Origin: Citrus sinensis
Lineage: Eukaryota; Streptophyta; Magnoliopsida; Sapindales; Rutaceae
Length of the DNA: 64,000 nucleotides
Assembly (NCBI RefSeq): GCF_022201045.2
Contig: NC_068558.1
Coordinates: 7,407,501-7,471,500, forward strand
Direction of reading: 5' to 3'
Shown: positions 27,184-52,718 of the stretch, piece by piece
Position numbering within the stretch: the first letter of the stretch is position 1
Layout: every line of letters begins with the position of its first letter
The notes under the pieces: generated by a model
What the model saw: only the letters and a program-made list of their open reading frames with translations
The model's database searches: none
What the model was told of the DNA's origin: nothing
Program-made: the position numbers and the translations under genes

Positions 27184-28854
27184 ATGTTGGTTGAAGAAAT
27201 AATTCCCGCCAATCCGGCAACGAGCTCCAAAGCTCCAACAACGCGACAAATTTTTTCCCTATTACAAATCCGCAACACCACTAAAACACACTTTCAAATT
27301 CACTCTCAAATAATCATTAACGGCTTTTCCCAGAAGAACTACATCCTCGCAAAGCTCTTAGCTTTCTACGTGACATCGGGTTATCTCATAAATGCCCAAA
27401 AGGTTTTTGAAAAAACTGAAAACCCAAGTACTTCTATATGGAACCAAATGATTAGAGGCCATGCTAGGAGCGAAACGCCTGAAAAATCAGTTTACTTGTA
27501 CAAACAAATGATAGACAAAGAGACTGAGCCTGATGAGTACACGTATTCGTTTCTTTTGAGTGTGTGCGCAAGATGTGGGTTCTTTAGAGAGGGGGAGCAG
27601 GTTCATGGGAGAGTTTTGGCAAGTGGGTATTGCTCAAATGTGTTTATGAGGACAAATTTGATGAATTTGTATTTGATGAGTGGGGGGGAGTGCGGCGTTG
27701 GTTGCGCGCGTCTGCTGTTTGACGATATGCCTGCGAGGAGTGTTGTGAGTTGGAATTCGTTGCTTAAGGGGTATGTTAAGCGTGGAGATATTGATGGGGC
27801 ATGGAAGATTTTTGATGAGATGCCACACAGGAATGTCGTTTCGTGGACGACCATGATTTCGGGGTGTGCTCAGAATGGGAAGTCCAGGCAAGCGTTGTCT
27901 TTGTTTAACGAGATGAGAAGAGCCCGTGTGGGATTGGATCAAGTGGCGTTGGTGGCAGCTTTATCGGCTTGTGCTGAAATAGGGGATTTGAAGTTGGGAA
28001 AGTGGATACATTCATATGTTGAGGAGAACTTTTCTGTTGGAAGAGAACCAGTTTTAGTATCTTTGAATAATGCACTTATTCATATGTATGCTAGTTGTGG
28101 CGAGATTGAAGAAGCCCATGGAGTGTTTAGAAAAATGCAGAGGAGAAATACTGTTTCTTGGACGAGCATGATTACGGGATTTGCAAAGCAGGGCTATGCA
28201 CAAGAAGCTCTTGTTTTCTTTGAATGGATGCAGAGCTCGGGAGTGAATGGAGCAAGACCGGATGAGCTAACCTTCTTAGGTGTTCTGAGTGCTTGTAGCC
28301 ATGGTGGCTTTGTTGATGAGGGCCGCCAATTTTTTGAGTGCATGAATCAAAATTGGGGAATCAAACCAAGGATAGAGCACTATGGGTGCATGGTAGATCT
28401 CTTCAGCCGTGCTGGGTTAATGGATGAAGCTTTCAGTCTTGTTCAGAATATGCCCATGAAACCAAATGATGCTGTGTTGGGTTCTCTCCTTCTTGGTTGC
28501 AGAATTCATAACAATGCTGAGCTTGCCTCACAAGTCGCTCAGAAATTGGTGGCTGAGATTGACCCTGAGCAAGCTGCCGGCTATCTTGCACTTGTGGCTA
28601 ATGTGTATGCTGCTGCTAAAAGGTGGCAGGATGTTGCTGCTGTAAGACAGAAGATGATCAAGATGGGTGTAAGAAAGCCTCCAGGTCAAAGTTGGGTCCA
28701 AATTAATGGTGTTCTTCATGATTTTGTGGCTGGTGACAGTACCTACAAGCAGGCATCTTTAATTTATAAGACGCTTGGTGAGATTACCATGCAGGCTATG
28801 CAGGAAGGCTACAAGCCAGACATATCAGAGCTGTTTTTGGGTATTGAGGAATAG
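27184..28854 (+). CDS. PLS-class pentatricopeptide repeat protein, E subgroup, 556 aa
   Basis: An intronless ORF with alternating P, L and S motifs: NPSTSIWNQMIRGHARS, RSVVSWNSLLKGYVKRGD, RNVVSWTTMISGCAQNGK, ALSACAEIGDLKLGKWIH, and ACSHGGFVDEGRQFF. The C-terminus has the E and E+ type block (PNDAVLGSLLLGCRIHNN, YAAAKRWQDVAAVRQKM, PPGQSWVQING) but stops at ELFLGIEE without a DYW deaminase domain. E-type PPRs are usually organellar C-to-U RNA editing factors that recruit a DYW partner. The first Met at 27184 gives a plausible targeting region with IFSLLQIRNTTKTHFQIHSQ. The 3' two thirds of the gene, from about 27671, is duplicated at 42985-44163 as a broken copy. Confidence 0.93.
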   Translation: MLVEEIIPANPATSSKAPTTRQIFSLLQIRNTTKTHFQIHSQIIINGFSQKNYILAKLLAFYVTSGYLINAQKVFEKTENPSTSIWNQMIRGHARSETPEKSVYLYKQMIDKETEPDEYTYSFLLSVCARCGFFREGEQVHGRVLASGYCSNVFMRTNLMNLYLMSGGECGVGCARLLFDDMPARSVVSWNSLLKGYVKRGDIDGAWKIFDEMPHRNVVSWTTMISGCAQNGKSRQALSLFNEMRRARVGLDQVALVAALSACAEIGDLKLGKWIHSYVEENFSVGREPVLVSLNNALIHMYASCGEIEEAHGVFRKMQRRNTVSWTSMITGFAKQGYAQEALVFFEWMQSSGVNGARPDELTFLGVLSACSHGGFVDEGRQFFECMNQNWGIKPRIEHYGCMVDLFSRAGLMDEAFSLVQNMPMKPNDAVLGSLLLGCRIHNNAELASQVAQKLVAEIDPEQAAGYLALVANVYAAAKRWQDVAAVRQKMIKMGVRKPPGQSWVQINGVLHDFVAGDSTYKQASLIYKTLGEITMQAMQEGYKPDISELFLGIEE

Positions 28855-30016
28855 GACAGGTAGCAAGAGAAATTTGCTGTGTTGATAAACTGCATCTCGC
28901 GTTAAGTTCACTTACTCGAGTTTCTACAGTTCTTGAGATCATTTGTTTGTCTTATAGGCACTAGACAGTTGCTCATCTTATAAGGTATAAAATTTTTCGT
29001 CAATCTCCCAAAAAGTGTAAAATTCATGTAAACTAATAGAAGTATTCTTTCTAATACAGTTGATTGTCTATTGAACTCCCTCTTCACATACACATGCAAT
29101 TGTGGCATGACCTTAATCTTTTTTGTGTCACCAAATAAAATAATAAGCTAAGAACTAGCATGATGCACGATTGTGTTGAAATAGAATATCAATCAGGCAA
29201 TTCATTCATCATTTCATGTAATTTTCACAATTACTACCATCATTTTGCGTAAAATGAACTATGACCAATTCCAAATGCTTTTGAGAAAGGCAAGTGCTAA
29301 TAGTGATTATGTTTGATTTGCTAAATATAAAGCCAAAATTTCAATATGCTAGGCATATTTCATTCACTACTCAGCAAGAAACTATGCTGGTTTGGGCCCT
29401 AGGAGGAGGAAACGTGAGACACTGTGGGAGTCAGGAGAAAACCCCAATAATTGGCTAAGACAATGCTTGAAATTTTGAAATTACAGCTTTGGTTCTACTT
29501 ATGCATCAGCGCAAGGAATAATTCCATTTGCATATTCTCAATTTACTTGATGCCAACGGTTTCTAATTCCTTGTAATGTGTCCATATCCAATTTCTTAGC
29601 AGCATGTTTCTCATTCTCCTCATTTTAGATTCTTTTATCAAACTCGTTTCGGAAGAGATTGGAATCAACCAAGATATATGTGCAACATGGAATTTGTAGT
29701 TTATTTTTCTGTTCTGTTTATTCTCTAATAGTGTATATATATATAATGATATGATGGTATATGCCTATCCTCTAATATATTGAGTTTAACAGATATACAT
29801 GCGATTCGAAATTGAAACAATTATGAACGGAAAAAAAAGTTTAATAAATAAACACTTCACTTATTGAATAAATGATTCTAGTGAGATCATCCAAAACAAG
29901 CTAATTGTAACAATTTTTTTAGAAATGTAATAATAAAAGAGATTAATATATGATAAGAGCAGCAATGGTAGGAGCCGCCTCGCTTAATTTTATTAAACCC
30001 ATTGCTTGAAATTCAT
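27671..30016. repeat. Segmental duplication unit 1, left block (PPR 3' part and flank)
   Basis: This stretch matches 42985-46021 nearly continuously: PPR codons, 3' UTR, and intergenic landmarks such as CATGATGCACGATTGTG and GGCATATT. It ends exactly where the LINE begins (CCATTGCTTGAAATTCAT). Unit 2 continues without the LINE. The right block of unit 1 resumes near 37640 and runs to about 42395. Confidence 0.85.
28855..30016. other. 3' UTR and flank of the E-class PPR gene
   Basis: Noncoding DNA, present a second time at 44164-46021. The parallel copy shows it is old flanking sequence and not a gene. No RNA gene or coding exon was recognised. Confidence 0.55.
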
Positions 30017-30963
30017 GTAAAATTAGGATTAAAAAAGGTACAAAAGGTGAGATGGGCAAGTATCCATCCACATTATAGTTTCTGTATTGTTTACAACCAT
30101 TTTAGCAATGTAATGGGCAGTATCATTACCAAGCCTTGAAGTATGTTGCAGGGTGGTGTTGTTCAGTCTTCTTAGGCCTTCTTGAATTTATGAAATAATC
30201 CAGCATATTTCGATTCTGCTAAATTTCCTTCCCATAGCCAGATCCACAGCTTTTTGACAATTGGATTCAATCATCAGTGGCATACAACTAGTAGATTATG
30301 CCGTTTCAATTCCCAACAGAATTGCTTTTGCTTCTGTAGCAAGTACATCACCATAGAACATGTCCTACTTCTGAGCTGCTGCTACAAAGTTTCCCCTCAG
30401 AATCTCTAATTACTACTCCTACACCAGCCACCTAATTTTCCACCTTTTCTACAGCATCTACATTCACTTTAAAACATCCGATTAGAGGAGGTTTCCAAGT
30501 CTGGTCCTCTAAGCTCCTCTGTCTTGAAAAAAAAAGGCAGTGGAGGAGGTTTATTTTTTCTGTATGATTCTACAATTGCTTTTGCTTTAGCCACTGATAT
30601 TTGAGAATCTTCTCTCTTTTTCTCAAAGACAAAAAGATTCCTAGAATGCCAATTTGCCTAACAAAGAGCTATAAACAATTCCATTTCTACTTCACTTTTC
30701 TTTGCTGCCAATACTTGGAAGATACTCAAAATGTCTTAGGTGGTAAAAAGCTTCATATCATCTGGAAAGGCTATGTTCTTCCATGTCTTCTGTCATTCCT
30801 TACAGTTCAGAAGAGCATGGGCAGTATTCCTTCCTTATTTGCCACATCTTTGGCACTAGGGTTGTTACAAAACCTTTTTCTGCCAAAGGTTATCTGCTGT
30901 TGGAAGCAGATTCTGAGCTGCTCTCCACATGGATATCTTAACCTTCTCTAGTAAATCAAGCTT

Positions 30964-31233
30964 TCATATTGCATGCCACTCTAATGGACTTTTCTTAGAC
31001 AAAATTTTAAGTTTTAAAGCAACTTGATAACCTTTCTTTACTGAGTAATTACCATGTTTATCATAAGCCCACAAATGTCGATCTTGTCTTGGACTTCTTG
31101 GCAACATGATCTTCAAAATTTGGTCTGCATCTTCAGGTGTAAATTGTTGCCTAATTATAGTTTTATTCCATTTATGCTCCTCATTAATTAGCAAAGAAAC
31201 TGTGCTATCTATAGGCAAAGTTGGCGCTGACAA
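30964..31233 (-). pseudogene. LINE zinc-binding (zf-RVT-like) segment
   Basis: An 89-aa open piece with DADQILKIMLPRSPRQDRHLW and YSVKKGYQVALKL, then SPLEWHAI. These are typical of the region downstream of the RT in plant LINEs (the DxLxW..GxYSVKSGY pattern). It is part of the decayed LINE. Confidence 0.75.
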
Positions 31234-31849
31234 AATCTTGAAGGTTGAAGGTCTAGGAAGCCAATTGTTATTGTAGATTTTTACTTGTTCTCCATTTCCA
31301 ATTCTCTATCTCACACTATTTTAAATCACTTGTCCATTGTCAGAGAATACTCCTCCAACTAAATGATGGCTTACAACATTTCTTTGCATTTAAGAAACAT
31401 GTTTTTCTAAAATATTGTGCCTACAAAACCTTTGCCATTAGAGAGTCAAGGGATTGAAGCAATCTCCACCCTTGTTTGGCAACTAGGGCTTGGTTGAAAT
31501 TGGATAAGTCTATGAATCTCATTCCTCATTTTCTTTTGGATTTACACATCCTCTCCCGTCTAGCCTAATGAATGCTTCTGTGATATTCCTTTGAGTTCTA
31601 CCAAAATCGAGCTATTGCTTTTTGGATGTCAGCACATAGACCCAAAGAAATCCTAAACACACTCATAGCATAAGCAGGAGCTGCTTGGGCAATTGTTTGA
31701 TTAAAACTCTTTCCCTCAACTGGAAAATAGTTTGCTCTACCAATTGGATATCTTATTAAGCACTCTCAGCTTGATGTCATTGAAGAAGCCAAAGTTTCCA
31801 TGGACAACAACCTCAAATGCTTCTCATGTCTTGAAACAACATTGAGCTA

Positions 31850-32560
31850 GAAGATGCTTTTGATTTTATCAATTTGCTGGGCTTGGTTGTTTCCATTGAA
31901 GAGCATTGAGGATTTCTCGCAGTTGAAAATTTAACCAAAGGCAACTGTATAGCTATCAAACATTTGCTTTAGCCTTGTACAATCTTCATCATTGGCCCTT
32001 GCAAATATAAGGCTATCGTCTGCAAAGAGTAAATGAGTTATTGCCAAGTTGTTGTTGAATTTCAACCCCTAGATCAGCTTCTTAGCTTCAGCTTGCTACA
32101 ATAGATTTGAAAAGCCTTCTGCACAGAGAATAAAATGATAAGGAGACAGGCAACAACCTTGTCTCAATCCCCTTTGTAAGTGAATCATTCTTTTTGTTGT
32201 TCTATTAATGAGAATTGAGAAAGATATTGCTGAAATACATCTCATAATCAATTCAATTCATTTAGGTGAGAAATTTAGTTTCTTCATAACATTTTCCAAA
32301 AAGCCCCACTCCACAGTGTCATATGCCTTACTAATATCAAGTTTTTAAGGCAACTAGGGCATTTTTCCTCCCCTCATACAACCTTATCTTATGCAAGCAT
32401 TCATAACATATAACTACATTATCAATAATAAGTCTAATAGGAATAAAAGCACTCTGAGTTGGTAAGATTATACTATGCAACATATGTTTTAGTCTATTGG
32501 CTATGATTTTTGTTACAATTCTATAAATCACATTATATAAACTAATAGGCCTTAATATAT
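31850..32560 (-). pseudogene. LINE reverse transcriptase core, broken
   Basis: Minus-strand fragments give MIYRIVTKIIANRLKHML and ILPTQSAFIP (32531-32400), then QGCCLSPYHFILCAEGF and the catalytic FADDSLIF (32026-32003). The order and motifs match a non-LTR RT (NRLK, QxAF, GCPLSP, FADD). Several frame changes separate them. Confidence 0.8.
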
Positions 32561-33380
32561 GTCGCTTTTTTAGGCTTCTCCACCTTTGGGATTAAAGCAA
32601 TGTATGTATGATTAAGGGGAACAATATTACTTCTTTTATTGAGGATATAAAGGCATCAATACTCATTTGCTCACATATTTCCAGTGCTTTTGAAAGAAAA
32701 CTGTTGGAAGCCATCTGGTTTAGGGTCTTGGGTTAGACACATTTGGGACAAAGTTGTTATTATCTCCTCTGCAGTGAAAAGTCTATCCAGCTATTTATTC
32801 ATGTCATTTCTCTTATTACTCTAGTAGACATATCTTGAAAGACATATTCTATTTGAATTTGAGAAGGATTTGTTGTAATGAGTAACTATGTAAAGTAGTT
32901 GCAAAACATTTTTTCCACATCATCAGCTTCTTTTGTCTTAAGTCCCATATTCATCTAGAATTCCCCAGATTTTTTTTTTCCTTTTTCTAGATAATTCCTT
33001 GGCATGGAAAAATTTTATGTTTTTGTTTCCCTCTCAAAGCCAATCAACTATGGATCTCTTCTTCCAGTATATCCCCTCTTTCAGTAAAAGGCCACTAATA
33101 TACTTTTCTAACATTTTGATATGTTATCAATCTTCATAATGCCAATTTTATTATTTCATCCCCGTTAATTCATTTATCAACTTTTCCAGTTTCTTACCTC
33201 TATTTCTGAATGTTTCTTTACTCCAACATTGAAGTTGAGCCATTGATTCTTTTTTTTTTTAAGCATTTAACTGCACCTTCAGTCATTTCACCTTTTTTTC
33301 TCATCCCACACCTACTTAAAAATTTCTCTGCATTTGTCATAATGGTTCCATAAATTCTCATAGTGTACCTGAGTAAAAGT

Positions 33381-34202
33381 TGTTGGAAATTTTCAAAATA
33401 ATTGTGTCTTATGGTAAAGACATGTCCTATTAATTGTGCCTTATAGAAAATGTACCTTTCACTAAAGACTTGTCTAATTAAATAATGTCTTGTTGTAAGG
33501 ACATGTCCATTTAATTGTGTCTTGTAGAAAATGTATCCTTTTACTAAATGATATAACTTTTCATGGCAACATTTCACTTAGAGATGCATCATTTCATGGT
33601 GACATTTCATTTGAAATGGTGATGGTTCAATTTGGACCATTGATTAAAATCAAATCTAGATCCAATGGCCATGAATGAAGGGGTATCATGAAAGATGATA
33701 ACCCAAATGAGGGGGCACAAGTATATCTATAAATAGGGGTCATGTTTAAGCCATTTAGACATGAAATGAATGATCATACACCACTCTTTTCTTAGCATTC
33801 CTTTCTAGTACGAATCTCAACACAAAACACCCATTTCTTTTGTGCATTCACATTCTAATATATTGTTTTTTGCAGGAACAATATATTGTTTCTTGGTAGG
33901 CTTGCAACATTCAAGAGTATTCTAGTTTGCTTTCGTCGATGCACAACGCAAGCAAACAAACAAGTGCTTCATTGTATCCTGGAGGCATATTTGCTTAACC
34001 CATGTGCATCACTCAATTGGTGGGGGCAAATAACGTCTTAAGGAAAGCGACATTTGTAACGTGCCTTGAAGCACACAAAATTTATGCAGTTTCTTCCTAC
34101 ATACAGAGTTAGTTGTAAACACATTATTTTACATAATAAAGTTCCACCATTATTGTTGTATTTCTCTACATTTATCATTCCCCACAAAATTTACCACCAA
34201 CA
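33381..34202. mobile_element. Solo LTR (822 bp) nested in the LINE, 5-bp TSD AAAGT
   Basis: The element begins TGTTGG (33381) and ends CCAACA (34202), exact inverted termini of TG..CA type. It is flanked by AAAGT at 33376-33380 and AAAGT at 34203-34207. The LINE endonuclease frame is interrupted exactly here: on removal it reads on from the SDHNPIL block to HYENLWNHYDKCREIF. A TATA-like TATAAATAGGGG lies near 33730. No internal region is present, so it is a solo LTR left by recombination between two LTRs. Confidence 0.9.
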
Positions 34203-34930
34203 AAAGTTCTATTATATCTTAAACCCCTTCATTTCTCCACCACAACCATCAAAATAGGGTTATGATCTTATGTCCATGTCTTTAAAGTTTCAACAGCTGA
34301 TTCAAGAAACATATTACACTATTCATTGTTACCCAAGAAGCGATCTAATCATTCTTCAATCAGGCAGTGCTATATCTTTTGTTAAACCATGTAACAGGAC
34401 GCCCTTTACATCCCAAATCCACCAGATTGCATTCTCTAATGGCTTATCTAAATTGATACATCATGCAAACTTCTCTGTCATTTCCTTTTGTTTTCTCAAA
34501 AGGCCACAGAATTTCGTTGAAATCACTAAAGCACACCCAAGGCAGAGAAGATATGTTAGCTAACCTTTTTAAAAACGTTCATGTATGGTGTTTCTAGCTC
34601 ATTTCTAGGTGTCCGTAGATCCCTACACACCTCCAACAACTACCATTCTCAGCACAAACCATTACGTCAATTTGGCGTTTACTTTAGGACTTGATATCCA
34701 CCAATAAGTATGAGTTCTACATTAAGGCTAAACCTCATTTTGCCTGTTTTGTTTTCTTCAAAACAATTATAAAACTTCAACTTTTTACTTTTCTCTTGCA
34801 TTTGACTAGCTATTAGCTTGGTTTCGCAAAAGAACACAAGTTTAAGCTTATGCTTTTGGAGCAATTTTTAAGCTTTTCGGAACGTTGGGTCACTCCCCAG
34901 TCCATGAGCGTTCCAGCTTATAATATTCAT
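34203..34930 (-). pseudogene. LINE endonuclease domain, broken
   Basis: The minus strand starts at 34930 with MNIISWNAHGLG, then KHKLKLVFFCETK, LPWVCFSDFNEILWPFE, and SDHNPIL near 34240. These are the ordered motifs of an AP-type endonuclease at the N-terminus of LINE ORF2. Stops interrupt it, and the solo LTR separates it from the following region. Confidence 0.8.
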
Positions 34931-35115
34931 GGCCGTAGGTGGGGTTGGCGTCCAGCCTCCATCGATGTCAACATTATGCCTTCCGTTTCAAATTCCTCTA
35001 TTTCATTGTCTTGTTACTCCTTTGTTTCCATCTTCAGTTTTTGTTTTGCTTTTGGAGAGTTGAGAATCACTACTTCTGTTTGGCCACTTATTTTTTTTTC
35101 TTTTTTGCTCCTAAG

Positions 35116-36036
35116 CAGGGACGTAGCCAGGATTTTGATTGAGCCGGGGCATATTTAAAATCAAACATGACTCGAATGTGCGATTGCTCGTGTCATAAGT
35201 CCCTATTTGAGAAAATTTATTGTGGGCCCCATAAACTCCAAATGGGAGCTTGCCACATGTATGATTGTGCTCCTTATAAAGTGCGTCTGTATGCATCTAA
35301 TTGAAACCCCTATTTAAAGTATAATACATTTTTAAAAATTTAGATATCAATATATAACATTACAACTATAATATTTATTGATAATAAATTTACTTATTAC
35401 AATGGTTCTCCGTGAAAACTCCTCAATGAGATTTTATGAGTTGAAAATAATGCATTATCACTATAAGCAAAAATATATTTTTCAATATACAAGACTAGGT
35501 TATTACTTAATTTGCTCTTAAAATCTTTTAATAATAACAAAAATATTCATATATTGCAACACACAAAACAAATATGAAATGCATGATAAAATTATAAATT
35601 TTAAAACTAGACAAAAGATTAATTAGAAAATTAAAAATTAGAATTAGGTAGACTTACAACTTATGATTCGGTGTTGAAAGACTAAATAATTGATTTTACT
35701 TGAATAAAAAATAAAAAGATTAAATACCAGTCCATTAACCATTATACTAACATTTTGTTATGATTGTTTTGTATTTTAATATTTGTTCTTGTGTCTTTAA
35801 TCAAGTTTCATGAAATGTTAATAACTAATTAAATTATTTATAATTAGAAATTTAAACTAGGGACAATATGAAATATTTTAAAATTACTGGAGTCAATTTT
35901 AAATTTTATAATTCAACTGGGGCATTTTTCATAAATAACAAATAAAATATAATTTTTTAGTATAATTATAAAAAAAAAAATTTTAAAGCCAGCTGGGGCC
36001 TGTGCCCCACCTCGTCCCACGCTGGCTCCGTCCCTG
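35116..36036. mobile_element. Non-autonomous hAT-type element (921 bp), 8-bp TSD CTCCTAAG
   Basis: Terminal inverted repeats CAGGGACGTAGCCAG (35116-35130) and CTGGCTCCGTCCCTG (36022-36036) pair with one mismatch. Both sides carry the identical 8-bp duplication CTCCTAAG (35108-35115 and 36037-36044). Terminal CAGGG and an 8-bp duplication are hAT traits. The interior is AT-rich and shows no transposase frame. It is inserted in the C-terminal part of LINE ORF1. Confidence 0.92.
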
Positions 36037-36910
36037 CTCCTAAGCTTGCACAAATTGCTTCAGTAGCTTCGATTGCTAGCTTTTTGTTGTTATTAGCCCA
36101 TGTTGCTTCTTTTCTTTACATTTGTCTTCACCTTGTGCTTGCATTTTCCATTTTCTTCTTTTGGGCTTTGTTATAGCCGCATTCAACCCATTTGCTCTTT
36201 CTTTGTTTTCATTTTCTTTACTTTCCCGCCATATTTTTTCATGTCTCCAAATCCAGCTGTGTTTTCTATTTTTTAGCATTTTGCCTTTTTCCTTCCTCAG
36301 CTCCATTAGCTGTAATAGGTATTTCTAGCTCTTTCCCTTTGTTGATGTTGACTTCACTAGCTGTCATCTTTAGCCTCTGACAGTTTTCACTTACAAATCT
36401 CATCTCTTTATATCTTTGTAATTGATACGCCTTTGTATTTAAATTTTCTCAGATGTAGATTGCCTCATCTTCCGGGTCTAAATTTTCAACCCCTTTTAAA
36501 GGTTGCAACTCGATGATTTTGGAATGGGGGTTTCCCTTGTGGATTTAGTGATTCATTTGTTGTATTTTCTGATCTTGTGTTCGGTCTTCCACTATCTTTT
36601 TGTTGTTTCAATCTTTCTACAGTGGTTTGAGCTTTAGTTCATGTACCATACGGCATATCTTCCTTAGCATGATTTTTGTATACTACACATTCTTTGTATT
36701 AGTGTTCAATACAACCACAATAGTAATAAAATTCTGGTAGCTTTTCATATTGGACTGTTATTGGAATCTGGTCTTCCTCTTTTTGGCTTTCTCCATGACT
36801 ATCTTTCTGCATCTCAGGTCGTCTATTTGTTTAGGCATTTTCTTGTTTCTTCTTTGTCAGCAGCAGTATGACTTTTGTTAGTGGCTTGGTGATACCCTAA
36901 GCCTGATAAT

Positions 36911-37408
36911 CTACCCCATAACATCTCTGCTGGCATCTGTTCCCACCTTCTCAACTTTCCTAATTGTGCCACCAATTACCATTAATATTTCCTTATCCAT
37001 ACACATAATGGGTACATTTTGAAGTTGCACCCAGAATGATGTATGTACAAAGGATTGTTTGGAGATATCACCGATACCTATAGGCTCTGTAAACACAAGG
37101 AAGGCATTATTAAAAAGACATGGACCACTTGTCAACTCACGCCTTTTATCCATCTTTGCTCCAAACTTGAAGAGGAATACATTGTCCCCCAAGTTTTCTA
37201 CTTTTACTGCTCTAATATTTTGCCAAGCTTGTTGCAAAGCTATTTTTAAGCCTTTCTTGTTCACATTCCTGTTTGTTAACACCTTCCCTATTAAGCATTC
37301 CGCCACAATTTTTTCTCCTTTTGCTTTCATTTTGCTCCTAAAAGATACTCTCCCCTCTCCCTCTCCTGATATAGTGATTGCTCTACATCGTTTGATTAAG
37401 TCTTCCAT
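36911..37408 (-). pseudogene. LINE ORF1 (Gag-like, DUF4283-type) fragment
   Basis: 165 open codons with GKVLTNRNVNKKGLKIALQQ, then AWQNIRAVKVENLGDNVFLF, then GPCLFNNAFLVF. They match the DUF4283-type N-terminal domain common in ORF1 of plant L1 elements. The following Lys-rich minus-strand piece (36306-36076) is likely the rest of ORF1, cut by the hAT element. Confidence 0.75.
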
Positions 37409-37640
37409 ATCTATAGCCCGTTTGCAGACACTGGCTTCAATTAATAATGGATTAATTCTAGCGATGACTCCTCTAACTTTGAACTCTGGTTGCTACCCAA
37501 AACAAGGCTGGTATTGAAAGCAAAATCAGATAAGTTTACTAAGAGAAAAATGATTCTTATAACCCAACTCGTGGGTAGAAAGAAGAGCCATAAAGACCCT
37601 ATCTAGTTTCATTCTTATTTTTCAGAGAAAACCTAAGAAG

Positions 37641-38543
37641 GAAGATTTATTTATTTATATTTTATATTTTATGGAAGGCCCTATTTATGTTGCCACAACG
37701 ACAACCTACACCACATTTTGTCTTTTTTGTGTTAAATTTCATTTGACCACTTTCTTTTCTTTTTATTTTCAAATATTTATAACTCAATCCAATTAATACG
37801 ATCGGCAGGAGAAGCGATGGCAGCAGGTTGTAGCAACGGCAGTAGGCAGTAGCGGGTAGTAGCAATAGTACCCAAAATGTGGTTTTTTGTCAGTGAAGTG
37901 TATATTAAGGAATCAATAGAAAGGTGGAGGCAAAATGGGAATAGTAAAGTTAGGGAGGAAGAGGATGAAGATGAGCAGGTGACTGCTTCGGTAAGTGTTG
38001 ATCGCTGCTCTTTTGCTTATTTTCAAATTTAAAATAATTCAGACTTATCTGTTAAAAATTCACTTTTTAATTTTTCTTTTTTAAATAGGACCTATGATGT
38101 TAATTATCAAATATATACATCCTTACGGACCTTACCATTGAGTCTGCTTTTCCATTTCATTGGACGGTAAAAAGACAAAAGTTGCATGGCACTTTTTCTT
38201 TTTGACGTGAAAGTTGAAAATACGGTGACCCATTCAACAAGCATTACATCCGAGGGTGAAGAGTTAAAGTCACAAATTGGCTGGATTCTTTATGGAAACG
38301 CTTTTTCTTTTTGACATGAAATTTTACAAGCGTGACCAGCAAGTTAATAAAACGGTGACCCATTCGACAAGCAATCGAAGGTAAAAAAGAAAAAAAATTA
38401 TGAGAACCCCAAAATGTTCCTATAAACATCCAATCGAATTCCCGTCTTCGTTTCCATTTACCGATAATTTCACTTCAATCAAAATCAGCTGATACATTCT
38501 TCCTTAAACGAAAACTAGAAAAGAAAAACCAAGCAGATATACG
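37641..38543. other. Former promoter region of the NEN pseudogene
   Basis: The last 200 bases correspond to the 5' flank of the intact NEN gene (GCAAGTTAATAA, CGGTGACCCATTC). A local direct repeat places CGGTGACCCATTC at about 38224 and again at 38356. No coding exon was found. Confidence 0.5.
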
Positions 38544-41500: not shown

Positions 41501-42345
41501 AAGGTGGTTTCTTCAACTATCCCGCAGCAAGATTGCAGTAAGTTTTCCCGCCATTTTTACTTGCATATTTTTCCGTTCCGGCAAGAAAATGAACAGAATT
41601 ACAGTCTAAAGGAATTAAATTTCTGATATACATCTTTTTCCTACGGCAGGAATTTAGGATACCGTGGTATGTTTATTTTGATATCTCTTGCTTTCTGTGG
41701 TACTCATCAAGTTGCGTCTTAGGTGTAAAATTTACATAATAATAGGGAAAACTGACAGCCAGCCTGAGAAGTTTAGACGTTCATATTACCATGCATATGG
41801 ATTTTGGGTGTGTAGTTTATTTATTAACTATTAGCTTTTGGATTGTTTTCGAGATTCATGAGGTGCTGGGTAAGTACAAAAATGGATCAGTACAGAAGTT
41901 TGTATTAGTTTTGAAGATAAAGAGGGAAGTCAATATTGAAATCTCTTTTTGACGTAACACCATCAAAGGCGGGCAAATTAAACATTAATGTTTTGTTTAT
42001 GCGGAATTACAAATGAAGCATCAACATGAATTAAGTGCCTCCTTGTTTTTACATATATTTCACTATTGAAAATACAACAGATGGATAATGTTTTGCCACC
42101 CTTTTCGCAGCATACGTACTGAAGCATTCGGAAATGCTGCTCGATACGCTACAGAAATATACCGGAAAGATGCATCTGGCAACATTCAGAAGCTCATGTT
42201 CGATAAGTTTGATGCTGCAGAACTCAAGTCCTCCTTAAAACCAGGGACCTGTGTGGATGCATTCCTGTCCTTAGATCCATATGACTATCAGCAGCGTGCA
42301 GGCATCCGATTAGTGGCCGAAAAGTTAATTATTCATTACGAGTAA
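38544..42345 (+). pseudogene. NEN-type exonuclease pseudogene (copy A)
   Basis: It has the same exon plan as the intact copy at 46938-50751: exon 1 38544-38808, exon 2 38902-39059, exon 3 from 39950, and the last exon ending TAA 42343-42345. It is broken three ways. There is a 15-bp in-frame deletion in exon 1 just after the DxE motif (near 38605). There is a nonsense TAG at 39968-39970 in exon 3, where the intact copy has TAT. There is a 7-bp deletion near 40887 that shifts the frame and stops at about 40981. The stop removes the third exonuclease motif (H...D) and the whole C-terminal half. Splice sites are still well preserved, so decay is recent. Transcripts may exist. Confidence 0.9.
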
Positions 42346-42984
42346 CAAAAGGGAAAGGACCTCTTGGAGGATCATCATTTGATGGTTAACAATACCAACG
42401 ATAATGTAATGTACCCCAATGTTACCAATACAATGTTGCCAAATGGACAACAAGAACAATCTGGAAAAAGCGCTTCATAATGAATTGCCCTTCGCCCCTG
42501 CTTTTGCTTCTCCGCTAGTGTCAAAATCATGGATATTGTTTAAGCTCAAAACTGTGGAAATAGACCACCAAACGTGGCCCTACTGAAACAAACTTTTCAT
42601 AAGCTACTCATTAGTCGCTCCAAGCCAAGAGTTATGTTATGTTGGTTGATTTCCTTTGTCGCCCCACAATAAATACTTTCTGTTAACGGACAGTGTGTCA
42701 GTGTCAACTAATGGTAAATTTGAGGGAAAAATGTCGGGTAAAAATGGGATTTTGTTTTGTCTTGAGGCATAATATAAGGTTTTGTTGGCTTTGGGTGTTT
42801 GGAAAGAAGCGGTTCCCTCAGCTTCGACGGTTGCCGTTTTAACAAAATTCCAGACGGCTTTTTCTTGTAGCTAGTAACATGTAATTCTTTTTGGTCCTCT
42901 GTCTCCAACTCATCCTCGTCACCACATATTCTCCTAAAACTGAATTAAACAGAAATTGAGTTTAATCTGTACAGGCACATTTGA
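42346..42984. other. Junction region between duplication units
   Basis: The first 50 bases are the shared NEN 3' flank. The rest lies between that and the start of PPR similarity at about 42985 and has no counterpart elsewhere in the window. It holds the duplication breakpoint. No gene was recognised. Confidence 0.5.
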
Positions 42985-44163
42985 TGATGATATGCCTGAG
43001 TGGAGGGGAGCGTGGTTTTGGGGTGTGCACGTTTGCTGTTTGATGATATGCCTGAGAGAAGTGTTGTGAGTTGGAATTCGTTGCTTAAGGGGTATGTTAA
43101 GTGTGGAGATATTGACGGGGCACGGTAGGTTTTTGATGAGATGCCACACAGGAATGTCGTTTCCTGGACGACCATGATTTCGGGGTGTGCTCAGAATGGG
43201 AAGTCCAAGCAAGCGTTGTCTTTGTTTAACGAGGTGAGAAGAGGCCGTGTGGGATTGGACCAAGTGGCGTTGGTGTCAGCTTTATCGGCTTGTGCTGAAA
43301 TAGGGGATTTGAAGTTAGGAAAGTGGATACCTTCATATGTTGAGGAGAAATTTTCTGTTGGAAGAGAGCCAGTTTTAGTATCTTTGAATAATGCACTTAT
43401 TCATATGTATGCTAGTTGTAGTGAGATTGAAGAAGCCTACGGACTGTTTAGAAAAAATGCAGAGGAGGAATACTGTTTTTTGGACAAGCATGATTAAGGG
43501 ATTTGCGAAGCAGGGCTATTCTTGTTTTCTTTGAATGGATGCGGAGCTTGGGAGTGAAGGAAGCAAGACTGGATGAGCTAACCTTCTTAGGTGATCTGAG
43601 TGCTTGTAGCCACGGTGGCTTTGTTGATGAGGACCGCCAATTTTTTGAGTGCATGAATCAAAATTGGGGAATCAAACCAAGGATTGAGCACTATGGGTGC
43701 ATGGCAGATCTCTTCAGCCGTGCTGGTTTATTGGATGAAGCTTTCAGTCTTGTTCAGAATATGCCCATGAAACCAAATGATGCTGTGTGAGGTCTCCTTC
43801 TTGGTTGAAGAATTCGTAACAATGCTGAGCTTGCGTCACAAGTCGCTCAGAAATCGGTGGCTGAGATTGACCCTGAGCAAGCTGCTGGCTATCTTGCACT
43901 TTTGGCTAATGTGTATGCTACTGCTAAAAAGGTGGCAGGATGTTGCTGCTGTGAGACAGAAGATGATTAAGTTGGGTGTAAGAAAGCCTCCAGGTCGAAG
44001 TTGGGTCCAAATTAATGGTGTTCTTCTTGATTATGTGGGTGGTGACAGTGCCCACAAGCATGCATCTTTAATTTATAAGATGCTTGGTGAGATCACCATG
44101 CAAGCTATGCGGGAAGGCTACAACCCAGACCTATCGGAGCTGTTTTTGGGCATCAAGGAATAA
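42985..44163 (+). pseudogene. 5'-truncated PPR pseudogene, copy of the gene at 27184
   Basis: It matches the E-class PPR gene from about its codon 163 to the stop (TAA 44161-44163). The first 160 codons and the promoter are missing. Further breaks are a nonsense TAG at 43126-43128 (Lys codon in the intact gene), an extra A in the A-run near 43450, loss of 11 bases near 43518, and shifts around 43790-43930. Open pieces still read NVVSWTTMISGCAQNGKSKQ and LFSRAGLLDEAFSLVQNM. It was probably non-functional from the moment of duplication. Confidence 0.93.
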
Positions 44164-44604
44164 GACAGGTAGCAAGAGAAATTTGCTTTGTGTTAACGAA
44201 CTGCATCTCGCGTTGAGTTCATTTACTGGAGTTGCTACAGTTCTTGTGATCATTCATTTGTATTCTCATAGGCATTAGGCAGTTTTTCATCTTATAAGGT
44301 GGCAAAACTTTCTCCAATCTCCCGAAAAGTGTAAAATTCATGTAAACTACTTGCTTGCTTGCTAGTTGCTGTCTAAAGAAATTGCAAAGTGTTTATGAAA
44401 AGAAAATTTTATTGATATTGATTTTGGGTACAAGTTGAGTGCTTGCTTGTTCGTGTATTCACTTACACATTCATGCATCTTGACTTGAGACTCTTTATAT
44501 ACAACTCAAGACTCTGGTCAAGACTTTGGACCATTATTGACATTGATTACAAAAGACAAAAGTAGAAAATGACTCTTTATATGTGGTGAAAAGTCAACGA
44601 TTAA

Positions 44605-44996
44605 TTAAAAAGGTACAAACTGACTAATTAGTACTATTATAGTGACTCACTATTTATAAACAGTAACTGTTTACTATTTTAAGTGATGACTCACTGTCGG
44701 TAAGAAAAGACAAAATGAAAAATGTGTTTTTACAGTTTTTCCTTTATCGAGTAGCGAATAAAGGTTATCTATAAAACTACGTGACTCTATCTACTTTAAT
44801 TTTACACTGATTTTGGCTACTGCTGACTAATCTTCCATGTCGTTTTTTATGTTGTCTGATTCTTTACTTTCCAAGTCATCCTACCATTTTGTCTTTTCTT
44901 ACCAACAGTGAGTTATCACTTAAAATAGTAGTCGGTTACTGTTTATAGATAGTGAGTCACTATAAAAGTACTAGTTAGCCGGTTTGTACTTTTTAA
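44605..44996. mobile_element. MITE-like element with about 113-bp terminal inverted repeats
   Basis: The left arm (44605-44717) runs from TTAAAAAGGTACAAAC to AAGAAAAGACAAAATG. It is matched in reverse complement by the right arm (about 44885-44996), with shared internal words such as ATAGTGACTCACTAT and ACTATTTTAAGTGAT. The whole unit is about 390 bp. It is missing from the parallel flank of unit 1 (near 29030-29080), where bases are replaced rather than simply absent. Target duplication is unclear (TTAA or TAA are possible). Confidence 0.8.
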
Positions 44997-46100
44997 ATAT
45001 TCTTTCCACATATGCATGCAATTGCGGGAAGACCTTTATCTTTTTTGTGTCTCCAAATTAATAGTAGACAAGCCAAGAACCCTGGAACATGATGCACGAT
45101 TGTGTTGAAATAGAATATCAATCAGACAATTCATTCATCATTTCTTGCAACTTTCACAATTACTGCCATCATTTTGCGTAAAAAGAACTATGACCAAATC
45201 CAAATGCTTTTGAGCAAGGCAAGTGCTAATAGTGATTATGTTTGATTAGCTAACTACAAAGCCAAAACTTCAATATGCTAGGCATATTCTATTCAGTATT
45301 CAGCAAGAAACTATGCTGGTTTGGACCCTTGGAGGAGGAAACGTGAGACAGAGTGCGCGTTAAGAGAAAACCCCAATGATTAGCTAAGATATTGCTTGGA
45401 AATTTAAAATTACGGCTTTGGTTCTACTTGTACACGAACGCAAGGAATAATTCCTAGTGCACATTCTCAATTTACTTGTTGCGTAGGGTTTCTAATTTCT
45501 TGTAATGTGTCCATATCCAATTTCTTGGCAGCATGTTACCCATTCCCCTCATTTTAACTTCTTTTATCCTTTTAATAATTAGTACTGAATCTTCAAACCC
45601 GTTTAGGATGAGATTGGATTAAGCTAAGATAAGCTATTAATTAAATGAACTATATTTTGCATTATGAAACTCAAAGCATTTGAATTTATAGTTTATTTTT
45701 CTGTTCTGTTTATTCTCTGATAATCAATCCTTACATTCATTATATAAAAAGAATGATGCAATATGGTATGCCCATCCTCTAATATATTGAGTTTTGACAG
45801 TTACACATGCGTTTTGAAATTGGAACAATTATGTACTTGAAAAAAATAAATAAATAAACGCTTCACTTATTGAATAAATGATTCTAGTGAGACCATCCAA
45901 AATAAGCTAATTGTAACATTTTTTTAGAAATGTAATATTAAAAGAGATTAATAAATGATAAGATGGGGCAATGGTAAGAGGGACCTGCTCAAATTTATTG
46001 AACCCATTGCTTGAAATTCATTCCTCTTTCATAACTAATTATTTATATTCTATATTTTATAGAAACACTTTTTTTTCTTTTGGGACATTACCATTACACT

Positions 46101-46726
46101 ACCTTTATTTTGTTTTATATTCATTCAACCACTACAAAATTCTAACATGATTTCTGTACCACATTTTTTTTTTAATTTGTATAAATTAGCTACTTTTACA
46201 CAAATACTGTTAAATAATTAAAACAAAATGATAATTTTACCCAAAAAAATAAAAGATCATTTTATTTTTAAAAAATTTGAAAAAAAATAATTTAAAAAAT
46301 ATCCCTAAATTTAATAAAAAATAAATTTCAAATAGAGGTTCTTAGCTGATTTTTATTAAATTTAGATTTTGTAAAGTTTTAATAATTCTTTTTATTAAAA
46401 AATTATAATTTTGTAAAATTTTATTAAAATAACTGAATTTATTTATTAAAAAATCCTTTATTAAAAAATAAAAATTATAATTTTGAGATTTGTTTCTCAA
46501 TTAAATTTAGGAGTATTTTTATAATTATAATTTTTTTATTTTTCAAATTTTTTACAAAATAAAATAGACTTTTAATTTATTTAGAGGTAAAATTGGTATT
46601 TCATTTAAATTATTGAATGATGTTTGTGTAAAAGTGATTAATTGATATAAATTTTAAAAATATGATGGTTCAGAAAATACATTAAAATTTTGTGGTGGTT
46701 GAATGAATATAATATAAATCAGGGAT
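46101..46726. mobile_element. Long-hairpin foldback or MITE-like element
   Basis: The arm from 46101 (TATATTCATTCAACCACTAC, CTACTTTTACACAAA) is mirrored by 46570-46726 (TTTGTGTAAAAGTGATT, GTGGTTGAATGAATATAAT). The pairing continues inward (AAATTTGAAAAA at about 46275, TTTTTCAAATTT at about 46540). Arms exceed 200 bp, with a loop near 46330-46490. It lies about 210 bp upstream of the NEN start codon. There is no counterpart upstream of copy A. Confidence 0.75.
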
Positions 46727-46937: not shown

Positions 46938-49900
46938 ATGGGTCCGACACAAGACCGATCCGAAATCGCGTTCTTCGACGTAGAAACAACGGTTCCGACC
47001 CGACCTGGCCAGCGCTTCGCCATTTTGGAATTCGGAGCAATTTTAGTTTGTCCCAAAAAGCTCGAGGAGCTCCACAACTACTCCACTCTGGTCCGACCCG
47101 CCGACCCGTTGCTTATCTCCTCTCTCTCCGTACGCTGTAACGGCATCACTCCAGACGCCGTCGTTTCCGCCCCTACTTTCGCCGATATCGCCGATACAGT
47201 CTTCGACATTCTCCATGGTCCGTTGAAAGCTCTCATTTTTTTCTTTCAATTTTTGTAATACTATTTGTTCTTTTTAACTTAGATTTTTATTTATTTATTG
47301 TTGTTTATACAGGAAGGATATGGGCGGGTCATAATATACTGAGGTTTGATTGTGCGAGAATAAGAGAGGCGTTTGCGGAGATCGGACTGCCGGCGCCGGA
47401 GCCCAAGGGGACGATTGACTCGTTGGCATTGCTGACGCAGAGATTTGGAAGGAGAGCTGGTGACATGAAAGTAAATATCTGTTAGCTTTGGATTACTATG
47501 ATGTTATGTTCAAGTGTTTGTGGGTGCCAACGATTTTAGCGTTTGTGTTTTTTTCAATGTTTTGCTTGTGTGCCTTTTCTGTTATTATTAAGTGCTATCA
47601 TTTTTAATGCTGCCTGATGAAATCACTGGCTGTCTGGTAAAAGTGGATTGAAGCACTTTAGCTGCTTTGCTTTTAAAGTTTTGTTGAAGCACGACAGTTA
47701 CCTATGTTTGGATGGAGGGAAGGAGAAGAGAAAAAGAAACTAGGGAAGTTTCTTTGGGAGGGACAGAAGAAGAACTAAATTAAAGCTTTCAACTGTATGG
47801 TTTCACTGCAATTGAAGTGAGGAGAAATTCATTTGTTGTCAATTAGATCTTATGACTATGTGTTAATTTGTTAGTTTGGCCTTGTTCTTTCTGCCTATAC
47901 CGTGAAAGGATTGGGCTTGGAATGATGGCACATGCACAACATTGCCCTTCTTTCATTGATTTTTCGAGCCAAACCGGAGAAATTCCTCCCTATCTCCTTC
48001 CCTCTCATTATTATTTTTTAGCCAATCACTGTTTTTTGCTTTTTCCAAAACAATATTTGGACCCTTTTATGGCTTAAGACATGTCAAAGAGGTGGAGCTT
48101 TCTTTGTTTAATCTATTTAAGTTTGAACCTTATTGGATAAATTTTGAGAAACTTGTGAACATTGAAGGTGCCAACACAGCGTTTTAGCCTGTAAAGAATC
48201 GTGCAATTGGGTTTCTGTTCTGTCACATTTGTTAATAAAACAAGAGTTGATGAATTTTGTGTGCAATTTACAGTTATGGCATTATGGTTTTATACTTTTC
48301 ATATGTGATAACTGTTTACTTCTTGATGCTGATATGTTAATATCTGTGCAGATGGCCTCCCTTGCAACCTATTTTGGCCTTGGACAGCAGACTCATAGGT
48401 ATTTTTACAGACTGCAAGGAGTTATGTTGCTTGCTCTTGCCTTGAAATAATACTTTTTTCTACAATCTTTCAGGAGCTTGGATGATGTACGAATGAATCT
48501 TGAAGTTCTCAAGTATTGTGCAACTGTTTTGTTCTTGGTAATCTCTTGTTGGAAAAGCATTGAGATCTGGCTTCTTCTTGAATGATAGAAATTGATAGCT
48601 TTCAGATGTCATAATATTCCTGTATAACATACTTGTAATGTTAAGCTTTGACTCAATTTCGGTCCGATGAGTATGATATGCTTTCTTGCTAGTTGATCTT
48701 ATTATAACATGTTTTCTTAAAGATAGTGCATATTGCTTCCAAAAGTACAGCTTTTCTGAAGTTTGATGATAGATGAAGACCCTCTAGGAGACTAGGAAGT
48801 TCAATGTTTAGCTACAATGCCTCTGAAGTTTACTTTGGTTTATACATAATCCAGACCCCACCACCCTTGGATAACATCATGCACTTCAATTTTGTTTTGT
48901 ACCTACGGCTATCAATTGGTGGCATATAAGTTTGCAATAGTTTTTCAACTATCCCAATTACTTTTTGGCCATCAAATTTTGTAAGATGATTAAATGCAGC
49001 TTATGCTGAGATGTGGAATGCTTGCACTCTGATTGCTCATAATCGATAACTTTTGAGTTCTTGTATATTTTAGGCTTATCTTGTTTTACCCATAAATGAC
49101 ATCTGATTGAGAGTTTAGTGGGGTGGCTGATGGATTTGCATGTTTCATAAGATTTCTTGTGTAACAATTAACCAGAAATTGCCATATTCACAGGAATCAA
49201 GCCTCCCAGACATATTCACTGTGAACAGTTGGGTTTCCCCAAATGCTACTACAAGAAGTCGTAGTAATGCTAAATCATCTCCTGAGGGGACAAGCCAAAA
49301 CCTCAGTACTCCCTCTTCAAAATTTAAGTTTGAAAATGCTTCAAATGCGTCTCCCCCAGATCAAGGAAAGGAGGAAATTCATCCAATATTTTCTCTTGTG
49401 ACTCAAGGAACTGCGGAGGTGGACTCCGTTCTGGCTGGAACTACTGCTGATCAACCCAATCCTTTTGACATGAACCAACTCAGCAATCAGATGGAGACTC
49501 AATCTCTTCAACCAGATGACACCATGGAAGATAAATCAGCGCCAGAGTCTCATGAGATGTGTTCCATGGCATCTGTGTCTGAGGGTTCAAGTGGTTATGC
49601 TGGATTTATGGAGCCTGATGAAGTTTCCCTCTCCTCCATCAGTGATGGTGTTGTCCCATTGTTTCCTGGGAGTCAAATTCAAAAAATTAAATTATTGCAC
49701 AATGATGTTATTTTGCAGCTTTGTTGTTCCCGTTTGAAAATACGTTTTGGAATAAGCACAAAGTTTGTTGATCAGGCTGGCCGGCCACGGTTGAGCTTTG
49801 TGGTTGACATAGCTCAAAGTCTATGCACAGTTCTTGATGCATGTGAAGTCATTGTGAGGAAATTGGTTGAAGATTCTGGTAGCAGCTCTGAATGGAGGCA

Positions 49901-50751
49901 TGTTGTGACCAGAAAAGGTGGTTTCTTCAACCATCCTACAGCAAGATTGCAGTAAGTTTTCCCTCCATTTTCAATTCCATATATTTCCGTTCCGGCAAGA
50001 AAATGAATAGAATTACAGTCTAAGGGAATTAAAATTCTGATATACATCATTTTCCTACAGCAAGAATTTAGGATACCGTGGTATGTTTATTTTGATATCT
50101 CTAGTTGCATCTTAGGTGTAAAAGATTATATAATAATAGGGAAAATGGATAGCCAGCCCTATATGTTTGGATGTTCATTTTTCCATGCACATGGATTTTG
50201 GGCATGTAGTTTATTTCATTTTGCTTTATTAACTATTAGCTTTTAGATTGTTTTCATGATTCATGCGGTACTGGTTAAGTACAAAAATGGATCGGTACAA
50301 AAGTTTGTAGTAGTTTTGAAGATAAAGATGGAAGTCAATATTGAAATCTCTTTTTGGCATAACACCATCTATGGCAAGCAAATGAAACATTAATGTTCTG
50401 TTTAAGTGGAATTAGAAATGAAGCATCAACATGAAATTAAGAGTCTCCTTGCTTTTACAAACATTGGTCTATTGAAAATACATGAGATGGATTATGTTTT
50501 GCCAACCTTTTTGCAGCATACCTACTGTAGTATTCGGGAATGTTGCTCAGTATGCTACAGAAATGTACCAGAAAGAAGCATCTGGCACCATTCAGAAGCT
50601 TGTGTTCGTTAAATTTGATGCAGCAGAACTCGATTCCTTGTTAAAACCAGGGACCTTTGTGGATGCATTCCTGTCCTTAGATCCATATGACTATCAGCAG
50701 AGTGCAGGCATCCGATTGGTGGCCAAAAAATTGATTATTCATTCCGAATAA
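46938..50751 (+). CDS. NEN1: NEN-type DEDDh 3'-5' exonuclease, intact copy
   Basis: Six exons, 46938-47217, 47313-47470, 48352-48398, 48474-48537, 49194-49951 and 50517-50751, sum to 1542 bases, or 513 aa, close to Arabidopsis NEN1. The N-terminal domain is a DEDDh exonuclease with all motifs: Exo I FFDVET (D14, E16), Exo II GHNILRFD (D106), and Exo III HRSLDD (H161, D166). The C-terminal half has a long Ser/acid-rich linker and the conserved blocks LLHNDVILQLCCSRLKIRF, RPRLSFVVD and DPYDYQQSAGIRLVAKK. In Arabidopsis, NEN proteins act below NAC45/NAC86 in the degradation of the nucleus during sieve-element maturation. The role here is inferred from family. It sits in duplication unit 2; its sister at 38544 is dead. 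Confidence 0.92.
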
Positions 50752-51358
50752 CAGGAGGAAAAGAACCTTTCGGAGGATCAGCATTTGATGGTTAACAATT
50801 AACCAAGTAGACTGACATGTACACAGCAAATTTGTTTTTCATTTTTCATAGGATGAGAATTGGAAATAACATTGTACTGATGCAGATGATGTATGATTGT
50901 AATATCATTCTTGACATTTGAAGTTTAATGTGATATAACTTGGTCTACCTTTTCAATTTTTATGTTTCTCTTCCTCCTCTAAATTAGTGAAAAGTGAAAA
51001 AGGTAAAAACAGTAAGCAGTGCAATGTTGTGTGATAATATTGCCACTATTAACACAAGTAAAGTCATCCATTAAATTATTAATGGTTCTGTTATATCAAT
51101 TATTTTACCGCCAACAAGCAAACAAAAAACAAAAGGTTTTTAAGAAACCCTAAATTCTTTGAAACCTCTATTTTCACTGGAATACGTGGGAAAGATTTTA
51201 ACAAACTGAAGAATAAAAATCTCCAGTGAACAAACAAAAAATGTATAGAATTGGCAATGCAGTATTTTACTTTAAAGATAAGATAATCGCAGGTGTTTGG
51301 AGAGTTAAATAGGGTGATAATGATCTCCTCCAAATAAAAGTGAGCAAATGGTTGAGTA
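50752..51358. other. 3' UTR and flank of the NEN gene
   Basis: The first 50 bases are shared with copy A. A stretch near 50860-50940 looks like a 3' UTR end (AT-rich, ATTTTTATG). No gene follows; open frames on the minus strand (51100-51576) are composed of the adjacent dyad repeats. Confidence 0.45.
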
Positions 51359-52702: not shown

Positions 52703-52718
52703 CCAGTCCCCCAGTTTC
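52703..52718 (-). other. Polypurine tract candidate
   Basis: Minus strand GAAACTGGGGGACTGG lies directly against the inner edge of the 3' LTR, the place where plus-strand DNA synthesis is primed in LTR elements. It is purine-rich but not pure. Location is the main argument. Confidence 0.55.

Follow-up and report, generated by a model that had tools for sequence, protein, structure and literature searches.

The locus is best explained by tandem copying, up to three copies, of a segment that began inside an E-class PPR gene and ran past a neighboring gene of the family we take to be NEN (NAC45/86-dependent exonuclease-domain), after which selection would have kept the NEN of unit 2 (NEN-B) and those of units 1 and 3 (NEN-A and NEN-C) would have decayed, a reading that we hold with considerable confidence. 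Three units are present, at nearly equal distances from one another; they carry lesions, and clear constraint falls on NEN-B only.

Three head-to-tail units

We compared the window, i.e., the whole 64,000-nucleotide stretch of sweet orange chromosome 3 under analysis, with itself. Three collinear direct matches were found, pairing 27677-29035 with 42997-44349 (90.9%), 29085-30016 with 45007-46021 (80%), and 38302-42414 with 46729-50822 (86%). This PPR-to-NEN collinearity bears out the tandem duplication proposed by an earlier, sequence-only reading of this DNA; that reading, however, had described two units, and we count three, the third lying past the window end (C3:7478714-7488834, window-equivalent 71214-81334) and made up of the tail of a PPR copy and a NEN whose C-terminal half is broken. 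The units were located as follows.

27677..42957, forward strand: unit 1 as duplicated segment; the match starts within PPR codon 165, and its right end corresponds to that of unit 3
30017..37647: stretch of unit 1 between PPR and NEN with no counterpart located in unit 2 or unit 3, interpreted as inserted material
42957..42997: unit 1/unit 2 junction, without long homology
44350..45006: inserted repeat whose arms are inverted, located in the 3' region of the unit 2 PPR copy
63027..63471, forward strand: last recognizable part of unit 2, equivalent to 80156-80603 of unit 3 (window-equivalent)
Unit 3, outside the window (window-equivalent): PPR tail 71214-72336; NEN-C exons 75194-79670; end 81334

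With its whole PPR gene included, unit 1 spans 27184-42957, and the unit 2 match begins at 42997, resumes beyond a young LTR element, and reaches 63471. The copies are thus collinear and head-to-tail with distinct junctions, as in tandem segmental duplication. The unit 1/2 junction is seen, and a 15-base stretch at 42986 recurs there at 43042, which may reflect end joining with templated filler. No unit 2/3 junction is preserved; older insertions have buried it, and the second duplication step is therefore not visible.

To place the units relative to one another, we used noncoding distances (K80, 2,565 sites), which were 0.1235 between units 1 and 2 (AB), 0.134 between units 1 and 3 (AC), and 0.1277 between units 2 and 3 (BC). 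Both differences tested (AB-BC and AB-AC) include zero, and the three units are roughly equidistant, at a noncoding K of about 0.124-0.134. Inspected by eye for gene conversion between units, distances vary from block to block, with AB at 0.049 in one 148-site block.

The PPR gene and its truncated copy

27184..28854, forward strand: intact E-class PPR gene of unit 1 (PPR-A), 556 codons in one open frame
42997..44166, forward strand: PPR-B, a 5'-truncated pseudogene with in-frame stops and internal indels

PPR-A carries PPR repeats (PF01535/PF13041) followed by an E motif (PF20431, at 442-506), and no DYW family appears among the eight Pfam families listed for it at E 0.01, which is the arrangement of an E-class PPR protein. 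No second complete copy was found among the genome matches scored (78 of 796 candidates), the next best long match in that set being 42% identical.

The match in unit 2 starts at PPR codon 165, in agreement with the earlier claim that the PPR copy was truncated at the junction. PPR-B has in-frame stops at three places and five internal indels (1, 1, 1, 3, and 11 bases, leaving aside a gap of 3 bases at the edge of the junction). Over 380 codons, 43 nonsynonymous changes and 3 stops were counted for PPR-A and PPR-B combined; a simulation of one neutral branch of 390 codons with the local substitution spectrum gave 47 (33.5-60) and 3 (0-7), respectively. By these counts, PPR-B looks neutral since its origin. 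An early suspicion of temporary constraint on PPR-B, raised by an AB dN/dS of 0.35, was weakened by this simulation and stands only if the omega of PPR-A is at least 0.2.

One intact NEN and two broken copies

46938..50751, forward strand: NEN-B, intact, 513 codons; exons 46938-47217, 47313-47470, 48352-48398, 48474-48537, 49194-49951, 50517-50751
46109..46718: fold-back (MITE-like) repeat whose end lies some 217 bases upstream of the NEN-B start, with further copies in the genome
38544..42345, forward strand: NEN-A pseudogene; exons 38544-38808, 38902-39059, 39950-39996, 40072-40135, 40787-41537, 42111-42345
38610..38611, forward strand: site in NEN-A exon 1 where 15 bp were deleted in frame, a lesion absent from the earlier reading
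39968..39970, forward strand: TAG stop in NEN-A exon 3, upstream of the final two catalytic residues (H, D)
40887..40888, forward strand: point of a 7-bp deletion in NEN-A exon 5

NEN-B is open across six exons, with GT..AG introns. Its DEDDh exonuclease domain, within exons 1-4, was recognized as PF00929 at the N-terminus (residues 12-174, E 3.2e-26), the RNase T-type domain of the NEN family; the catalytic D-E-D-H-D residues are kept, and PDB yields four matches at E 0.001, all of them proofreading chains of bacterial DNA polymerase III. The protein also has a long C-terminal part, as do Arabidopsis NEN proteins. Apart from a short, presumably NEN4-like paralogue on chromosome 7, a whole-genome search gave no further NEN match; we take this paralogue as short because only 27 residues of the C-terminal half were matched by tblastn over 16 kb. 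Since nothing else was returned by that search, NEN-B is probably the only full-length NEN of the genome.

NEN-A, by comparison, has kept its introns, acquired disabling lesions, and lost constraint, as a duplicated (unprocessed) pseudogene does. The TAG stop and the 7-bp deletion lie exactly where the sequence-only reading had put them, and the decayed NEN is indeed the copy adjoining the ancestral, intact PPR-A. The complementary survival that it described thus holds for units 1 and 2: an intact PPR with a broken NEN in the former, a broken PPR with an intact NEN in the latter. Its description of PPR and NEN as a functional pair found no support. NEN-C also retains its introns but has exon 5 lesions, including a frameshift; its first stop falls at codon 258, and the exonuclease half is still open.

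To quantify selection, branch counts of nonsynonymous changes were derived from pairwise counts among the three copies (394 shared codons). These were 61.5 for A, 17.5 for B, and 40.5 for C, against about 48 for a neutral branch; the Poisson probability of so low a count is 2e-7 for B and 0.14 for C, and the NEN-A count is slightly above neutral (P 0.04). Bootstrap medians of branch omega (95% range) were 0.80 (0.50-1.47), 0.23 (0.11-0.52), and 0.61 (0.35-1.11) for A, B, and C, respectively. Of the sites conserved between the chromosome 7 paralogue and the other two copies, 8 of 113 had changed in A, 1 of 106 in B, and 5 of 110 in C, with no clear difference between C and B (Fisher P 0.21). 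Together, these results show NEN-B as the only copy under clear constraint. Stops are few in the other two (a single in-frame one in NEN-A and none in NEN-C, compared to 3 [1-7] for a neutral full-length branch), and the times of death are therefore uncertain.

Origin of the array and alternative explanations

The favored sequence of events would start with a tandem duplication by end joining, the duplicated segment running from inside the E-class PPR gene (about codon 155-165) to approximately 1.7 kb past the NEN stop, as measured on unit 3. Unequal crossing-over would then have brought the array to three copies within a short time. Because the break falls inside the PPR gene, only unit 1 would have a whole PPR and the other copies would never have been complete, the PPR break being the original breakpoint; all three NEN copies, by contrast, would have arrived whole, upstream sequence included. 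Selection would have retained the unit 2 NEN, presumably expressed and doing the NEN job in sieve-element nuclear breakdown, and the NENs of units 1 and 3 would have decayed. So understood, the locus is a case of ordinary birth-and-death, here in a two-gene segment that was duplicated in part.

The unit 1/2 junction could, however, stem from a later deletion and not mark the first breakpoint. The first duplication would then have taken the whole PPR, the deletion would have removed the end of unit 1 together with the start of PPR-B, and PPR-B would have died after arrival. We consider this unlikely. The repeated 15 bases fit a deletion no less than a duplication, units 1 and 2 could each have lost whatever once corresponded to the sequence beyond 81334, and 43 nonsynonymous changes are few for an always-neutral PPR-B if the omega of PPR-A is 0.2 or 0.3 (P 0.03 and 0.01, respectively); at 0.1, on the other hand, this number is unremarkable (P 0.12), and three in-frame stops are the neutral median. 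The earlier statement that the PPR copy was "dead on arrival" is thus compatible with the neutral simulation but falls short of proof, given how low the count is at a PPR-A omega of 0.2-0.3. That the array is an assembly artefact, made of unmerged haplotypes or misjoined copies, is hardly credible: only the repeat-rich setting speaks for it, and the units differ by a noncoding K of 0.12-0.13, each with its own insertions and lesions, all on one chromosome contig.

A further alternative concerns NEN-C, which might still work as a 257-residue protein that has the exonuclease domain in full but lacks the C-terminal half, like a short NEN4-type enzyme (NEN4 is short). Its DEDDh residues and GT..AG splice signals are kept, the first stop falls only at codon 258, PF00929 is recognized at 2.3e-26, and its nonsynonymous changes are somewhat below the neutral expectation. 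This possibility seems improbable to us, given a dN of 0.047 against a dS of 0.058 for exons 1-4 on the C branch, the larger share of changed conserved sites than in B, and the exon 5 frameshift. More doubtful still is a broader scenario in which the array changed how much NEN is made, and when, in this lineage, with NEN-C persisting as a short exonuclease. It builds on the fold-back repeat before NEN-B, whose only candidate target-site duplication, a T-rich 11-base match, is unconvincing, and on approximately 750 bp of upstream sequence that is kept by unit 3 and missing from NEN-B. If true, sieve-element enucleation would depend on a promoter that a mobile element had changed and on a truncated partner.

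A young insertion and the haplotype question

52039..63018, reverse strand: young LTR element that interrupts unit 2; its two LTRs, at 52039-52705 and 62348-63018, differ by K 0.020

Reverse transcriptase and integrase frames of this element lie on the minus strand, and by eye GCATC flanks it on both sides. Sequence elsewhere in the genome fits a Citrus source: one terpene synthase exon agrees at 71 of 72 residues with (+)-limonene synthase (PDB 5uv0), a sweet-orange enzyme, whereas an exon of another locus lay closer to cadinene-type synthases, which is unsurprising in so large a family. A matK-like frame was recognized in the readable part of the first 3 kb of the smallest contig, and the first 3 kb of contig C10 showed no tRNA. 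Sweet-orange haplotypes differ by 3.8% according to the part of PMC9832951 consulted. Since the units have diverged about three times as much (K 0.124-0.134), presence/absence of the array itself between haplotypes is unlikely, and the LTR insertion is the better candidate for a haplotype difference.

Significance and comparison with known systems

The locus, of which no title or passage seen in the open-license PMC literature searched gives a description, offers a clean example of how tandem duplication of two neighbors can leave the intact members in different copies; an annotation that went by position, choosing the NEN that adjoins the intact PPR, would end up with the dead gene. If NEN-B is the sole full-length NEN, it would be a single point of failure for a step of phloem differentiation in a crop genus, and a one-gene knock-out would test the role of the family outside Arabidopsis. 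NEN1-4 are linked to sieve-element nuclear breakdown in the sections seen of PMC5310277 and PMC13097475, and PMC5924527, likewise seen in part, gives three copies of the family in Brassicaceae and one in poplar.

As far as the portions consulted of the following sources go, plant tandem and proximal duplicate pseudogenes (PMC7935947) similarly keep introns and flanks and are disabled by stops, frameshifts, and deletions. Here, however, the duplicated segment is common to two neighboring genes, and for this reason the intact PPR and the intact NEN stand in different units. PPR genes are known for birth-and-death evolution (PMC1892557), and here too a PPR copy was born and then lost, although it seems to have been copied only incidentally, with a segment that contained another gene in full. 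NEN1, NEN2, and NEN3 (PMC5924527, PMC5310277, and PMC13097475) share the RNase T-type DEDDh domain with the citrus genes, which differ in that they form a tandem array of three on a single chromosome, two of them broken. APOLLO (NEN3), the apomixis-linked locus of Boechera (PMC5924527 and PMC10929715), belongs to the same gene family and likewise has copies that diverged after duplication; its apo and sex forms, in contrast, are alleles with 5'UTR polymorphisms (PMC10929715), and nothing seen at the citrus locus points to apomixis.

A Tandem Array of Three Units

We compared the window with itself and with its flanks on the same chromosome, 90 kb in all (30 kb before and 60 kb after). Within the window, units 1 and 2 gave collinear matches—i.e., 27677–29035 with 42997–44349 (90.9%), 29085–30016 with 45007–46021 (80%), and 38302–42414 with 46729–50822 (86%)—which confirms the tandem PPR-to-NEN duplication proposed in a sequence-only reading. 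That reading counted two units; both stand, but the total does not, since a third lies beyond the window end. A genome DNA search with 44000–45000 as the query gave a match 7 kb past that end, and in the extended self-comparison (window-equivalent coordinates) unit 3 consists of a PPR tail at 71214–72336 and, from 74511–74968 onward, a NEN copy with its near upstream sequence, up to a right end at 81334 that matches the end of unit 1 (42437–42957). Measured on unit 3, the segment reaches 1.7 kb past NEN. Unit 2 likewise extends beyond the limit first assigned to it, with 50169–51293 matching 79081–80159 of unit 3 and a distal piece, 63027–63471, matching 80156–80603. No additional units were found in the 154 kb compared (matches >150 bases).

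Because these two unit 2 pieces both match unit 3, the first of the following LTR elements sits within unit 2; the second hides the unit 2/3 junction.

LTR elements of the array
52039–63018: 11-kb LTR element inside unit 2, domains on the minus strand; nucleotide distance (K) between LTRs 0.020, hence young
64009–69728 (window-equivalent), between 63471 and 71214: second LTR element; repeats 85% similar

Both elements carry reverse transcriptase and integrase domains and, from frame order, look Ty3/Gypsy-like. By eye, GCATC lies on either side of the first, which also contains a 69-base tandem repeat (11.1 copies, 55648–56415). Inverted matches of 148 bases (63859–64006 and 69980–70127) closely flank the second.

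Constraint on the NEN Copies

Six NEN exons were placed using splice signals and comparison of the copies. NEN-B, the copy in unit 2, is open through 513 codons. NEN-A, in unit 1, has both lesions that had been read from the sequence, at exactly the positions claimed: a TAG at 39968 in exon 3, ahead of the last catalytic H and D, and a 7-bp deletion after 40887, in exon 5; exon 1 has a further 15-bp in-frame deletion. NEN-C, the unit 3 copy and a possible pseudogene, has an open frame as far as codon 257, with the entire exonuclease domain retained. Its exon 5 has lost 321 bp in frame and gained a 2-bp insertion, and the first Met of exon 3 is changed to Leu.

Over the 394 codons common to the three copies, pairwise counts were 79 (AB), 102 (AC), and 58 (BC) nonsynonymous and 41, 42, and 39 synonymous changes, respectively. 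The branch counts derived from them were 61.5 (A), 17.5 (B), and 40.5 (C) nonsynonymous changes, compared to ~48 for a neutral branch, and 22, 19, and 20 synonymous changes. NEN-B is constrained (P = 2e-7); the NEN-C branch does not separate from neutral (P = 0.14), and the NEN-A branch equals or exceeds the neutral count (P = 0.04 for excess). Judged at sites that are the same in both remaining copies and in the chromosome 7 paralogue, A has changed at 8 of 113, B at 1 of 106, and C at 5 of 110 (A vs. B, P = 0.036; C vs. B, P = 0.21). A neutral full-length branch would be expected to hold three in-frame stops (1–7); NEN-A has one and NEN-C none, which argues mildly against a very early death of either copy.

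In a genome search with the first-draft NEN-B protein, all 22 candidates were scored and 19 matches obtained; 17 of these fall in the three units, and the other two are exon matches on chromosome 7 (28644082–28644802). In the 16 kb examined there, this paralogue consists of exons 1–4 plus the beginning of exon 5, its C-terminal half was not found, and it lacks the exon 1–2 intron. Given the 17 matches in the array and this short gene, no full-length gene of this type other than NEN-B appears to exist in the genome. According to PMC5924527, poplar has one NEN1/2/3-group copy vs. three in Brassicaceae, and the APOLLO gene is NEN3.

The best-kept NEN upstream sequence is not in NEN-B: ~750 bp of unit 3 (74218–74968), largely present in unit 1 too, are replaced in unit 2 by the following repeat; among the 40 of 482 candidates scored, its relatives occur on each of the nine large contigs.

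46109–46718: MITE-like fold-back repeat; 217 bp separate its end from the NEN-B ATG

Fate of the PPR Copies

Unit 1 holds an E-class PPR of 556 codons (PPR-A). Among the 78 of 796 candidates scored in a genome search, its only close matches are the unit 2 pieces (82–83%); the best long match after these has 42% identity. The unit 2 copy, PPR-B, starts to match at 42997, i.e., PPR codon 165 (by eye perhaps a few codons earlier), and is interrupted by three in-frame stops and by five internal indels (1, 1, 1, 3, and 11 bases). We simulated a neutral branch with the local noncoding substitution spectrum, which over 390 codons gave 47 nonsynonymous changes (95% range 33.5–60) and 3 stops (0–7). 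PPR-A and PPR-B combined show 43 nonsynonymous changes and 3 stops over 380 codons; thus, PPR-B looks neutral all its life, with PPR-A strongly constrained. The total of 43 is unremarkable if the nonsynonymous/synonymous rate ratio (omega) of PPR-A is 0.1 (P = 0.12) but low if it is 0.2 or 0.3 (P = 0.03 and 0.01), so that PPR-B may have had a constrained phase.

A separate PPR frame of 698 codons (24346–26442, minus strand) lies ~0.7 kb from the E-class PPR in divergent orientation; its Pfam listing has PPR repeats and no E motif. Elsewhere in the genome, a Pfam search for terpene synthases gave at least 190 matches (150 of 257 candidates scored), with exon clusters on chromosomes 9 (25.1–26.2 Mb), 8 (25.6–25.8 Mb), and 5 (9.3–9.5 Mb). 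One terpene synthase exon agrees with PDB 5uv0, the (+)-limonene synthase of sweet orange, at 71 of 72 residues, which points to Citrus, and a small contig carries a matK-like frame and looks plastid.

Order and Age of the Array

Noncoding distances over 2565 sites were 0.1235 (0.110–0.138) for AB, 0.134 (0.120–0.150) for AC, and 0.1277 (0.114–0.143) for BC, and the bootstrap ranges of AB–BC and AB–AC include zero. Such near-equal distances indicate that the three units diverged almost simultaneously. PMC9832951 gives 96.2% overall similarity for the sweet-orange haplotypes; set against it, the divergence of the units argues that the array should be older than the haplotype split and present in both haplotypes. 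The young LTR insertion in unit 2 may vary between them.

Together, these results bear out what the sequence-only reading had observed and support its interpretation in part, including complementary survival, with the PPR kept in one unit and the exonuclease in the other. The locus very probably reflects birth-and-death after partial tandem duplication of a segment, a known kind of event of which this array is a well-defined new instance.
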